Shown in pieces: positions 47,451-50,842 of a DNA stretch of 64,000 nt. The notes beneath the pieces were generated by a model. It ran no database searches. It had not been told where the DNA came from and saw only the letters and a program-made list of their open reading frames with translations. Source of the stretch: Flagellimonas marinaquae. Its GTDB lineage: Bacteria; Bacteroidota; Bacteroidia; Flavobacteriales; Flavobacteriaceae. Position 1 is the stretch's first letter, and each line of letters opens with the position of its first letter. The position numbers and the translations under genes are program-made. The stretch lies in contig NZ_RZMZ01000007.1 in NCBI RefSeq assembly GCF_003992675.1, forward strand, positions 1-64,000. The letters run 5' to 3'.

Positions 47451-48251
47451 CTAATCCATTATTATTTTAAACTGGTTCTTCAGTCCATTATAGCCATCCA
47501 AATCGGCCTTTAGGGACCCTACTGCCAAATCGGCCTTTATTCTAATGGGAATTTTGTTCCAATCGTTGGAAACCCAAAGCGTAAGACTCTCCTTTTCCTT
47601 AAAAACCCGACCGGATTGAACCAACGGCCTAAATTTAAGACATTCCACCTTGCCAAACTTGGTACGGATGATTTCTTTTCCCAAATATTTCAATTGGAAC
47701 CTGAATACGCCGTCATCATCAAAGAGCATATCCAAGTCAATGGCCTCTCCTTCTTCAAACTCTTCTAGGTTATAGTTGCTCCTTAAATAGTAAGAAGCGG
47801 AAATCAGATCTTGGATTTGATCATGTATTTTAAAATCCTGCCGCGTTCCGTTTTTGTTATCGATCAAAAGAGCTTTTCTCTTGTCATAATCAAATTCTAT
47901 TTCAATATCCTTGGTATATCCTCCTTCATCAATTTTTCTGATGAATTTGTAAGGCTTACCGTGTTCCTTGCCAAAATAACTTTCATAGGTGTCATCCACC
48001 TTAAAAAAGATACTGGCAAATCCAGTGGTTTTACCCCTGCCCACCACGTGGTACACCGGAACGCCGTTGAGCTCCTCAGAGGTGAGGTGCATGGTAGCAT
48101 AGCTTGCATTTAGAATACCATAGTGTATCCTAAATTTTAACCACTCCCCTGGTTTAAAAGCTGGCTGTGAACTCTGTCCCACTATGGGAAGGGCCATTAC
48201 AAGCAGGAGTAGGGCGATAATAGTCTTTTTCAAATGCAATTTCATGGTCAT
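47451..48251 (-). CDS. DUF3108 exported protein
   Basis: A 266-residue protein with a signal peptide (IIALLLLVMALPIVGQS). The mature domain (FKPGEWLKFRIHYGILNASYA, GVPVYHVVGRGKTTGFASIF, VECLKFRPLVQSGRVFKEKES) matches DUF3108, a periplasmic beta-barrel-like domain of unknown function. Start at 48251 or, two codons later, 48245; both give the same signal. It is the first gene of the four-gene unit ending with pgi; gaps to the next genes are 10 bp, 7 bp and an overlap. Confidence 0.88.
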   Translation of the reverse strand: MTMKLHLKKTIIALLLLVMALPIVGQSSQPAFKPGEWLKFRIHYGILNASYATMHLTSEELNGVPVYHVVGRGKTTGFASIFFKVDDTYESYFGKEHGKPYKFIRKIDEGGYTKDIEIEFDYDKRKALLIDNKNGTRQDFKIHDQIQDLISASYYLRSNYNLEEFEEGEAIDLDMLFDDDGVFRFQLKYLGKEIIRTKFGKVECLKFRPLVQSGRVFKEKESLTLWVSNDWNKIPIRIKADLAVGSLKADLDGYNGLKNQFKIIMD

Positions 48252-48328
48252 AAAATTAGTAAAATCACGTTAAGGGGCCACGCTGTTCACATATACTTAA
48301 ACAAAACTTATTCCAAAATAGTATAAAC

Positions 48329-48360
48329 AAAAAAAAGCCCAGTCTCGAGACTGGGCTTTT
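48329..48360 (-). terminator. Strong terminator at the 3' end of the candidate small RNA
   Basis: AAAAGCCCAGTCTC and GAGACTGGGCTTTT (48333-48360) form a perfect palindrome with TCGA at the tip, followed by T8 on the minus strand. It would also stop readthrough from the patatin gene. Confidence 0.85.
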
Positions 48361-48430
48361 CCTAAATAACCAACCAAACTTTAAATTATGAAAAACCAAT
48401 ACTTAAAGTTATAAGGGAACCACCCCTTAT
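48329..48430 (-). ncRNA. Candidate structured small RNA with its own promoter and terminator
   Basis: In the 320-bp space between the patatin gene and DUF3108, the minus strand has a perfect -7 box TATCTTTG (48437-48444). About 7 bp downstream begins a perfect hairpin ATAAGGG...CCCTTAT (48411-48430), then a second perfect stem AACTTTAA / TTAAAGTT (48377-48384 and 48403-48410), then a strong terminator. No real reading frame lies on that strand. On the plus strand there is an eight-codon ORF at 48388-48414, so a leader-peptide reading cannot be ruled out. I cannot identify the RNA with a known family. Confidence 0.5.
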
Positions 48431-48436
48431 GTGGGT

Positions 48437-48444: not shown

Positions 48445-48571
48445 CGGCAAGCTTTTTCAGAAAAAAGTGATTTTAACGGACTTTAACTAAACCCCTAAGA
48501 TATTGATTGGTTTTGGTTGTTTTTTTGACAAATTATTAAGAAAACCGGGCTGTTCGATCACATGATTTTCA

Positions 48572-50842
48572 CTAAAACCAATACCCCACACTAAAGAAAA
48601 CATTGCTCGAATCAATTTCGGGAGACCATGAATAAAACACTTGTATGGGACCCAAAAAGGATTCAAACCCATATCCGATTCCATATCCGGAAAAACTAGG
48701 TTCTTCAAACCAGTCCCCCGTACGGAAAAGGTCGTCCGCTACATTTGCGTAATTGGCCGTGAACAAGGCATGGTGCTTGGGAGCAAAACGGTAATCCAAC
48801 CGGCCCAATCCCTTGATATAACTATTGCCGGGCAAACTCAGGAAATCATATCCAAAAAAGGGCATAAAATTGTTCACAAAATCGTTCCCGAAACCCCCTA
48901 ACACAAAATCAAAGGAAGCCACTTGAGATGTTCCCAGTTTGAAACCCGTATCGGCCTCCAAGGTAACGCTCAAATTATGCAAAGGGGAAAAAACCCCTCC
49001 AAACTCACCTTTCGCCACGGCAAATTCCGAGAAATTATCATTGTAATCGGAGGAAAATGCATAAAAATGGAAATCTCCATCAAACAGAAGTCCCTTGGTC
49101 GGAAAATATTTGTCGTCGTAGGTATCCAGCTTTATTTGGGAGTAAGCACTAAAGTAGTTGGAGTTTTCAAAATTGGTCCGCCGATTACCCGTGGAGTTCA
49201 TTCCCAACTCTGCGTTCTCCTCCAATTGTCCCAATGTCCTCGTGCTATAATTCAAAAACTTGTGTTCCGCACCAATGGTAAAGGCAAATTCTTCTTTTAT
49301 AAAAGTTTGAAGGTATACTTGGTTGGTAAGGTCGGTAACATCAATATTAATCCTTTGGATGCTGGGGTCGTTGGGCACATCAAAATTACCTTGGATCAAT
49401 GAAAAATCGGTTTCGGCATCAAAATCCGTTAAGGTGGAATTTATGCCAAAGCTCCAGTAGAATCCTTTGTCCAAATAATATTGCATGTTGTACCGAATGT
49501 GGTCCCCAAGAATGAAATCAAAAGAGGCCACATCATCCTTCATCAAGAAATTCTTTTTGGTAAGATTGATCAAAGCAGCACTTTTGTACAGATCATCGTA
49601 GTGTGCCGACATTTTGATAAACATTTTGGTCGGATCTTCCTTGAGTTTCAAAATGAGGTCCGTGCCCAGACCGTTAGAAATGAGGTCGTACCGAATGGCC
49701 ATAAAGTTTCCTGTGGCAGAAAGGTTATTGATTCCTTGTCGCAGGTCATCGAAGGAAATTTTTTCAGCAAGATTAAATCGCAATTTTCCTTTGATATAGC
49801 CTCGAGTATATTGCTCGTTACCTTCAATAATCATCCGGTTTATGGTTAAGCTATCCACCATTTTTATGGTTTTTCTAGGTGCTGGTGAACCCTTTTGGCT
49901 TTCCGCAATTTGTTTGAGCTCATCTAGCTTTTGTCTGGCAGCGGCCTCTCCGTTCTTCACGATTTGGTTGCCCTTTTCAAAATCGATTACCGAAAACTCA
50001 TCAATCTCTGGACGGATATAGACATCGGTTTGTTTCGATTTCTTTTTCATGTCATTCACGGTTCGGTAATTATTGATCTGCAACAAAATTTCGGTTGCAG
50101 AGGAAAGCGATTCCCTAGTGACCAAATCGTGTTGCACATCCACCCCAATGATTAAATCGGCACCCATCTCCCTCACCTGACCTATGGGATAATTGTTCAC
50201 CACCCCACCATCGATCAATATTTGACCGTCGATTTCTGCAGGTTCAAAAAGGGAAGGAAAGGTTCCGCTGGCCACAATGGCCTCAGGAAGATATCCGTTG
50301 TCCAATAAAACCTCCTCTCCGGTCTCTACGTTGGTGGCTATGCACACAAATGGGGTAGGCAACTTTTTGAAATCCTCCACATCCTTTACGTGGTAAAGCA
50401 ATTGGACCAATAAATTATAAATGTTCTGGCCACCAGAAATGGCCTGGGGAAAGGAAACCTTGAAGTTTTCGAAAGGCAAGGACAGTGCATATCGTTCGGA
50501 ATCTTCTTTCTCGTAAAAGGTCTTGGCGCTCCGTGGCACGTTATCTTGAATCAAATCCGTAAAATCCGTGCTTCTAAAAATGGAGTCCAGCTGTGCTGCG
50601 GAATATCCAGAAGCATAAAGAGCCCCGACAATGGCTCCCATACTGGTGCCGCCAATGTAATCCACCTTGATTCCTGCTTCCTCGATAACTTTTAACACTC
50701 CAATATGGGCAAGACCTTTAGCGCCTCCACCACTTAAAACAAGCCCCACCTTGGGTGGTTTGCTTTCTAAGGGTTCCTGTGCCCAAACCGCCCCGCAGAG
50801 GAAGGCAAAAAATATAGATAGATAAATGGCCTTGTTCCGCAT
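48572..50842 (-). CDS. Patatin-like phospholipase fused to an outer membrane barrel (type Vd-like)
   Basis: A 756-residue protein with a signal peptide (ending GAVWAQ). The patatin domain has the oxyanion loop SGGGAKGLAH, the nucleophile elbow GTSMG with Ser67, and the catalytic Asp in LIDGGVVNNYP. A POTRA-like segment (about 330-400: INRMIIEGNEQYTRGYI) precedes a C-terminal BamA-like barrel (from about 400, ending SSNVFFSVGYWF). This layout is that of PlpD-type Vd autotransporters, giving a lipase displayed at or released from the outer membrane. It starts 3 bp after uvrC and is probably cotranscribed with it. Confidence 0.92.
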   Translation of the reverse strand: MRNKAIYLSIFFAFLCGAVWAQEPLESKPPKVGLVLSGGGAKGLAHIGVLKVIEEAGIKVDYIGGTSMGAIVGALYASGYSAAQLDSIFRSTDFTDLIQDNVPRSAKTFYEKEDSERYALSLPFENFKVSFPQAISGGQNIYNLLVQLLYHVKDVEDFKKLPTPFVCIATNVETGEEVLLDNGYLPEAIVASGTFPSLFEPAEIDGQILIDGGVVNNYPIGQVREMGADLIIGVDVQHDLVTRESLSSATEILLQINNYRTVNDMKKKSKQTDVYIRPEIDEFSVIDFEKGNQIVKNGEAAARQKLDELKQIAESQKGSPAPRKTIKMVDSLTINRMIIEGNEQYTRGYIKGKLRFNLAEKISFDDLRQGINNLSATGNFMAIRYDLISNGLGTDLILKLKEDPTKMFIKMSAHYDDLYKSAALINLTKKNFLMKDDVASFDFILGDHIRYNMQYYLDKGFYWSFGINSTLTDFDAETDFSLIQGNFDVPNDPSIQRINIDVTDLTNQVYLQTFIKEEFAFTIGAEHKFLNYSTRTLGQLEENAELGMNSTGNRRTNFENSNYFSAYSQIKLDTYDDKYFPTKGLLFDGDFHFYAFSSDYNDNFSEFAVAKGEFGGVFSPLHNLSVTLEADTGFKLGTSQVASFDFVLGGFGNDFVNNFMPFFGYDFLSLPGNSYIKGLGRLDYRFAPKHHALFTANYANVADDLFRTGDWFEEPSFSGYGIGYGFESFLGPIQVFYSWSPEIDSSNVFFSVGYWF

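Follow-up and report, generated by a model that had tools for sequence, protein, structure and literature searches.

Members of the Flavobacteriaceae are major polysaccharide degraders of the sea, and to our knowledge little is known about regulation by small RNAs (sRNAs) in this family. The closest described systems come from Bacteroides and from Flavobacterium psychrophilum. The FopS family of Bacteroides thetaiotaomicron, described together with RbpB, comprises 14 paralogues with a single-stranded 5' seed (R1) and with the terminator as the sole structured part; according to the same report, its structure is deposited in Rfam (PMC11697453). GibS of Bacteroides is described as a trans-acting, largely unstructured RNA of ~145 nt that carries the 5' seeds R1 and R2, pairs over start codons and is conserved within Bacteroides (PMC7366714). 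Covering of the start region is the mode of action given for Bacteroides sRNAs in these two reports (PMC7366714, PMC11697453). In F. psychrophilum, Rfp18 is presented as a structured sRNA that is conserved beyond the species and a homologue of which is confirmed to be expressed in F. columnare; deletion of Rfp18 lowers two metalloprotease mRNAs, for whose normal levels it is needed, and its predicted pairing region is the third stem-loop (PMC9723704). The same report describes the sigma54 motif SM4 and Rfp36, a putative regulatory RNA behind such a promoter, and characterizes Flavobacteria as being without Shine-Dalgarno sequences (PMC9723704).

Judged from its sequence, the window analysed here, a 64,000-nt stretch of the genome of Flagellimonas marinaquae, contains a real and very strongly conserved sRNA gene on the minus strand. 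This gene, which we assign to class A, has its own promoter, of predicted sigmaA type, and its own predicted intrinsic terminator. The -7 box pointed out in the initial annotation, TATCTTTG, is present at 48444-48437 on the minus strand and is of the type TAnnTTTG; its consensus and its position at -12 to -5 were taken from F. psychrophilum (PMC9723704). Because the box is placed in this way, +1 would lie near 48432 and the RNA would be ~103 nt long (about 48432-48329). A -33 TTG was not apparent by eye upstream of the sRNA. About 40-55 bp before the predicted +1 lies the direct repeat GTTAAAGTCCGTTAAA (48472-48487, minus strand), which is likely an activator site and is the sole exact match to this sequence in the 3.42-Mb genome.

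The three proposed stems were all recovered on the minus strand. Hairpin 1 (48430-48411), claimed as a perfect stem of 7 bp, reads AUAAGGG(G)/(U)CCCUUAU, with seven Watson-Crick pairs, one G-U pair and the apical segment GUGGUU. The 8-bp second stem, AACUUUAA/UUAAAGUU, is formed by eight perfect pairs within the predicted hairpin 2 (48410-48377) and is lengthened by a G-U and a U-A pair. The intrinsic terminator (48360-48329) consists of a 14-bp palindromic stem (48360-48333) and a run of eight T (48336-48329). In the predicted fold of 48329-48430 (-38.4 kcal/mol; z -6.5; 0 of 200 shuffles as stable), the segment GGUUGGUUA (48367-48375) is unpaired, and we propose it as the seed. A scan of 1.6 kb for terminator-like sites found 2, one of them this terminator, where 2.1 are expected by chance, and is thus uninformative alone. 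Frames of at least 80 codons over the element are absent from both strands, which agrees with the earlier statement that the minus strand is non-coding here; a 45-codon stop-to-stop span that does cover the element on this strand is broken, by eye, by changes in terminator-loop length in relatives.

Every one of the 71 genus genomes searched contains the element. Across the family, a BLAST match with E <= 0.001 was obtained in 164 of 395 genomes, many of these matches being short and weak, and the covariance model R1 matched 195 of 395, with class B (described below) partly included. The window sRNA scores 126.5 bits against R1, its sequence being among those from which the model was built. 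When 60 stretches were fetched from R1 matches, GGTT[GA]GTT was found in the matched part of 51 and was absent from nine, three of which (L276, L360, L361) resemble divergent class A RNAs and four (L285, L365, L368, L369) terminator-only chance matches. Since some R1 matches look terminator-only, the figure of 195 somewhat overstates the true members. Beyond the family, eight order genomes gave R1 matches, and the motif is in neither of the two that were read (L368, L369); a spread of the sRNA beyond the family is not supported. In named genomes, an exact-pattern scan yielded at least 120 stretches, and the 80 listed from these include Allomuricauda, Maribacter, Arenibacter, Zobellia, Cellulophaga, Robiginitalea and Croceitalea. 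Tandem pairs of class A RNAs, ~280-320 bp apart, were observed at L262 (G367), L265 (G222) and G262:C122.

The alignment comprised 58 loci of 20 genera, with 31 loci contributed by the window's own genus; these loci are a subset of all matches in which the best genus and family matches were taken first. In all 58 loci a -7 box TAnnTTT[GA] stands at the matching place, the T-run is kept, and a GTTAAA-N3-5-GTTAAA repeat is present, starting 42-43 bp before the start of the -7 box. Over 41 distinct sequences, 47 of 48 consecutive positions of the core are invariant (a single variable base in positions 25-72 of alignment A1), and GGUUGGUUA does not vary in this alignment. In contrast, the DUF3108 protein encoded next to the RNA in 27 other-genus loci (L034-L060) is only 63-74% identical to that of the window. 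In the more divergent alignment A3, GGUUGGUUA is found in 60 of 68 rows, and the other eight, all from genus g112, read GGUUAGUUA; this genus has an orthologous RNA in which GGUUAGUUA replaces GGUUGGUUA in 8 of 9 rows, and, being the most sampled genus, it is probably Flavobacterium. The genome of F. marinaquae itself contains three further sites, L288 (C7:78274), L293 (C13:126765) and L294 (C14:69716), at which TTGGTTGGTT lies outside long frames and ~45 bp or less upstream of a terminator-like hairpin on the same strand. L288 has 17 nt (TTTGGTTGGTTATTTAG) in common with the sRNA and is located 40 nt after a 339-codon open frame. Possibly, these sites are paralogues or 3'-UTR RNAs.

A search of relatives for covarying stems, which had been suggested as a check, revealed compensatory double-sided changes in 29 of 34 base pairs among 63 distinct homologues. 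In alignment A3, both sides have changed in 7 of 8 pairs of hairpin 1, 9 of 12 pairs of helices 2-4 and 13 of 14 pairs of the terminator stem; here, divergent relatives supply the variation that close relatives lack. Pairing is possible in 96.6% of the cells, compared with 83.0% in shuffles and 37-66% when the partners are slid. As A3 was fitted to the model, its pair figures lean towards structure, but the slid controls are still far lower. The alignment has 68 rows, 63 of them distinct, from 66 sources chosen as class A, with L264, L276 and L279 of the DUF3108 locus left out; it replaced A2, which contained seven weak matches (E 0.002-0.009) and class B rows.

In the window, the sRNA gene is flanked by two genes on the same strand, a patatin-Omp85 gene upstream (48572-50842, minus strand; PF01734 and PF19143) and a DUF3108 protein gene downstream (47451-48251, minus strand; PF11306, E 5e-58). 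Ahead of the latter, at 48300-48315 on the minus strand, lies the sigma54-like element TGGAATAAGTTTTGTT, whose -24/-12 fit was made by eye and which is a probable separate promoter of the DUF3108 gene. Such an element (TTTGGAA[CT] or a longer form) is found downstream of the sRNA in 49 of the 58 aligned loci, and its conservation suggests that the DUF3108 gene belongs to a sigma54 regulon. The core motif is present in 166 of 187 loci examined, some of which are copies of one genome and hence not independent. Of these 166, 151 have the DUF3108 gene downstream in the same orientation and 137 a tryptophan dioxygenase gene downstream, while the patatin gene was seen upstream in 111, many loci being too short to reach there. 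Each of three g112 stretches tested has both the DUF3108 and the dioxygenase gene.

A second form of the RNA, class B, shares the plan of class A (a GUGGUU-loop hairpin, UUUGGUUGGUUA and a terminator) and has a different 5' sequence. Its promoters are of the -24/-12 type TTTGGCAC, and its neighbours are presumably an SPFH-type gene beside a hydrolase gene, or other genes. GGUUGGUUA is found in all 21 rows of the class B alignment A4. The corresponding covariance model, R2, was built from 21 rows of 19 loci and has matches, some of them to class A RNAs, in 233 of 395 family genomes; R1 and R2 together match 271 of 395. As each model also matches the other's class, neither 195 nor 233 can be read as the number of genomes with class A or class B, respectively. 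A sigma54-type motif TGGCA[CT]-N-TTG precedes 18 of the 19 loci used for R2, all 24 best R2 matches (five of which are places among the 19 model loci) and 17 of 20 weaker matches, 18 of these 20 containing GGTTGGTTA. Tandem arrays of class B, with at least three copies ~160-260 bp apart, occur at L268 (G235), G430:C40, G361:C1, G129:C1 and G310:C10.

Among the listed matches, we selected 106 of 395 genomes as class A and 98 as class B; the two sets do not overlap, where independence of the genomes, an assumption that does not apply, would predict ~26 in common. Exclusivity is nevertheless not strict: two genomes of one genus, G222 (L479) and G367 (L480), carry a class B-type RNA with a sigma54-type promoter and GGTTGGTTA alongside class A. 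Seven further class A genomes have two or more R2 matches (G194, G209, G215, G284, G289, G358, G365) and may add to these cases. Mutual exclusion is thus a tendency that mostly holds, not a strict rule, and mostly exclusive classes suggest related roles. At L358 (G398) we observed a hybrid RNA with a sigma54-type promoter and a class A-like TTTTCATAAATTAAGTTTGGTTAGTTAA segment. In addition, motifs of the GTTGGTTA type stand shortly before terminators in other contexts at L364 (G338) and L366 (G365), in genomes that also have class A.

Comparison with the Rfam 15 covariance models, another check that had been suggested, gave no match at the gathering threshold in the window and 16 related loci. 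Weak matches to BTnc231 (RF04180; 27.2 bits) and rteR (RF04181; 23.9 bits) rest largely on the terminator and are far below the respective gathering scores of 80.4 and 72. In the literature search, no described candidate besides Rfp18 was found. The initial annotation had called the RNA undescribed, and this holds for Rfam 15 and the literature searched, with the reservation that Rfp18, compared by description only, could be its Flavobacterium orthologue (PMC9723704). Rfp18 pairs by its third stem-loop according to that description, whereas the most conserved unpaired segment of the present RNA precedes the terminator. Moreover, Rfp18 is reported to be needed for its mRNAs and not to lower them, which would count against a repression model if the two RNAs were the same. 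By its promoter, class B can be likened to Rfp36. A strongly conserved sRNA family thus appears to be absent from Rfam, and that a second class of it should stand behind sigma54-type promoters is unexpected.

With FopS, as described in PMC11697453, the sRNA has in common its chromosomal location, a promoter of its own, an intrinsic terminator and a conserved seed. Pairing near the start codons of SusC-type genes is shown for FopS and is predicted for the present RNA. Unlike the 14 FopS paralogues, it mostly has one strong match per genome, and its class B stands behind sigma54-type promoters. Its architecture also departs from the one described for FopS, as two covarying hairpins precede the seed and the seed adjoins the terminator. 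GibS resembles the present RNA in the mode of action proposed for the latter, and differs from it in being largely unstructured with seeds at the 5' end (PMC7366714). If the target model presented below is right, the sRNA would work like FopS.

We put the probability at about 0.6 that the element constitutes a gene of its own, encoding a ~103-nt trans-acting sRNA whose seed pairs at the translation starts of SusC/TonB-receptor mRNAs and blocks ribosome loading. Control of these receptors is the most likely mechanism that can be predicted from the sequence. For transcription, activator, targets and repression we infer the following course. The sigmaA-type promoter would drive transcription of the sRNA, with an activator probably bound at the GTTAAA repeats, and the RNA's own intrinsic terminator would end it. 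The transcript would fold into hairpin 1, hairpin 2 and the terminator and would leave UUUGGUUGGUUAUUUAGG single-stranded. Together with UUUUUCAUAAUUUAAAG, the 3' arm of hairpin 2, this segment would offer a surface complementary to start regions of the form UAAYYAAYY...AUGAAA, and pairing at the starts, with many G-U pairs, would block ribosome loading on the mRNAs of SusC/TonB-dependent receptors, proteins of nutrient uptake in the outer membrane. The 3' arm is complementary to an A/U-rich start region with AUGAAAAA, and arm and single-stranded segment together could pair with one such as UAACCAACCAAACUUUAAAUUAUGAAAAA.

The motif AYYAAYY, which is the pairing complement of GGUUGGU, was enriched within the 60 nt before receptors of the own genome (11 of 28, compared with 93 of 677 background genes). 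With its end 6-23 nt upstream of the start, it precedes 22 of 45 SusC-type genes from six other genomes and 8 of 28 own TonB receptors, compared with 49 of 677 further genes of the own genome. Whereas the choice of the motif predates retrieval of the other genomes, the 6-23 nt limits were chosen with knowledge of their leaders; all background genes belong to the own genome, and first ATGs served as start codons. The 45 SusC leaders are not independent, as paralogues share leaders by descent; 42 of them pass the family cut-off (one of the 42 has in-frame stops), and the set combines 30 loci given and 15 fetched out of many more matches. The own receptors go back to 34 matches, 30 of which have a locus; dropping L329 and L324 left 28, and in the duplex test, where L329 was dropped, 29. 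Among 35 permutations, AYYAAYY has the highest count and the second-highest enrichment, with two overlapping registers close to it. When all 8-mers of the RNA were scanned, GGTTGGTT was the best in the own receptors (12 of 28 vs 5.5 expected, p 0.006 uncorrected), an enrichment that is lost on correction for all windows scanned. In the other genomes, it is the best 8-mer that does not match the start codon (29 of 45 vs 12.3 in shuffles).

Several related searches did not single out the receptors. Mean duplex energies are -20.0 kcal/mol for 29 TonB-receptor starts and -20.1 kcal/mol for 42 window genes, which may themselves include receptors. Neither the exact Watson-Crick complement AACCAA (1 of 28 receptors vs 41 of 677) nor UAAYYAAYY (1 of 28 vs 7 of 677) is enriched in the own receptors, and the 24-nt complement occurs nowhere else in the genome with up to three mismatches. 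With the exact complement not enriched and the 24-nt complement absent elsewhere, the proposed pairing has to rely on G-U pairs and short sites; a search of the genome for long antisense pairing to other genes found none. With at most one mismatch, AACCAACCAAA is not enriched (104 and 105 on the two strands vs 110 and 116 for a reversed control), and GTTAAAGTnnGTTAAA with one mismatch has 4 sites compared with 8 for the control; as there are fewer sites than in the control, a regulon cannot be read from GTTAAAGTnnGTTAAA. The motif AACTAA (9 of 28 vs 34 of 677) was picked with these leaders already in view, and we do not use it as evidence. The evidence that the seed GGUUGGUU pairs with receptor leaders is thus only suggestive.

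How firmly the element can be taken as an sRNA gene of its own depends on what else could produce such a pattern. A chance combination of signals, or a decayed gene start read on the wrong strand, would find some support in the plus strand, which resembles a start region (ATGAAAAACCAATAC) and has an 8-codon frame, MKNQYLKL, behind an A/C-rich leader. This frame, however, is not kept in divergent relatives (by eye), and the element is conserved across 20 genera, which excludes chance and bears out the initial view that the combination is unlikely to be fortuitous. The paired cells of A3 hold 314 G-U but only 7 A-C combinations, and since G-U cells so far outnumber A-C cells, and a T-run is present, the RNA is placed on the minus strand. 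Covariation and this asymmetry rule out the chance and plus-strand readings, to which we assign practically no probability, and the minus-strand interpretation is supported by the conserved and compensated stems as well as by the promoter box and T-run found in 58 of 58 loci. Since the DUF3108 gene follows it in the same orientation at 151 of 166 loci, the element might also be a cis-acting 5' leader or attenuator, in which the terminator would stop transcription into this gene unless a signal prevents it. The locus does not have the form of an alternative-pairing switch without a separate gene promoter: in 49 of 58 loci the conserved sigma54-like element stands between the terminator and the gene, and an anti-terminator partner is not evident because the variable arm of the terminator covaries with its stem partner, whereas the core upstream of it does not vary. 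Furthermore, the copies L250-L253 (three of them in one genome) have no DUF3108 match within 3.1 kb, tandem copies of the sRNA exist in some genomes, and class B adjoins other genes. We therefore regard a DUF3108 leader as very unlikely. Since the sigma54-like element separates the terminator from the DUF3108 gene in most loci, the sRNA is best seen as a free-standing unit, with a gene of its own, rather than as part of the DUF3108 transcript.

Two further alternatives accept a trans-acting sRNA and differ in what it acts on. It might act mainly on other mRNAs, for example those of secreted metalloproteases or adhesins as for Rfp18, whose deletion lowers two metalloprotease mRNAs (PMC9723704). 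An orthologous RNA does exist in g112, which is probably Flavobacterium, and AYYAAYY is commoner before secreted-like genes as defined by a crude rule (24 of 133 vs 49 of 544, p 0.003). Against this stands that Rfp18 is likened to the present RNA by description only, and that its pairing by the third stem-loop, as described, differs from the pre-terminator segment found here, so that we consider this account improbable. Rather unlikely, in our estimate, is the other alternative, according to which GGUUGGUUA and GUGGUU bind a protein, the RNA sequesters or recruits this RNA-binding protein, and the SusC leaders are not targets. Binding of a protein could account for the invariant core just as well: classes A and B have the seed motif in common but differ in much of the remainder, the three further TTGGTTGGTT sites in the own genome lie near terminator-like hairpins, and duplex energies do not set the receptors apart. 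The enrichment of AYYAAYY before SusC starts in other genomes, however, speaks for pairing with receptor mRNAs, which remains our preferred reading.

On a wider scale, an sRNA system of two forms might extend over the whole of the Flavobacteriaceae: class A, under sigmaA and an activator at the DUF3108 locus, and class B, under sigma54 at other loci and sometimes in tandem arrays. Most lineages would have one form and a few both, and both forms would repress SusC/TonB receptors via the common seed GGUUGGUUA, read with G-U pairs, as an independently evolved counterpart of FopS. The presence of both classes in G222 and G367 weakens this scheme, which we regard as a tentative and still doubtful possibility. 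A central regulator is suggested by the nearly letter-for-letter conservation of the RNA between genera and by the existence of a second form, under a different sigma factor, that is mostly found in other genomes. If SusC receptors are indeed controlled by it, two distant branches of the Bacteroidota would have reached the same RNA-based switch for glycan uptake.
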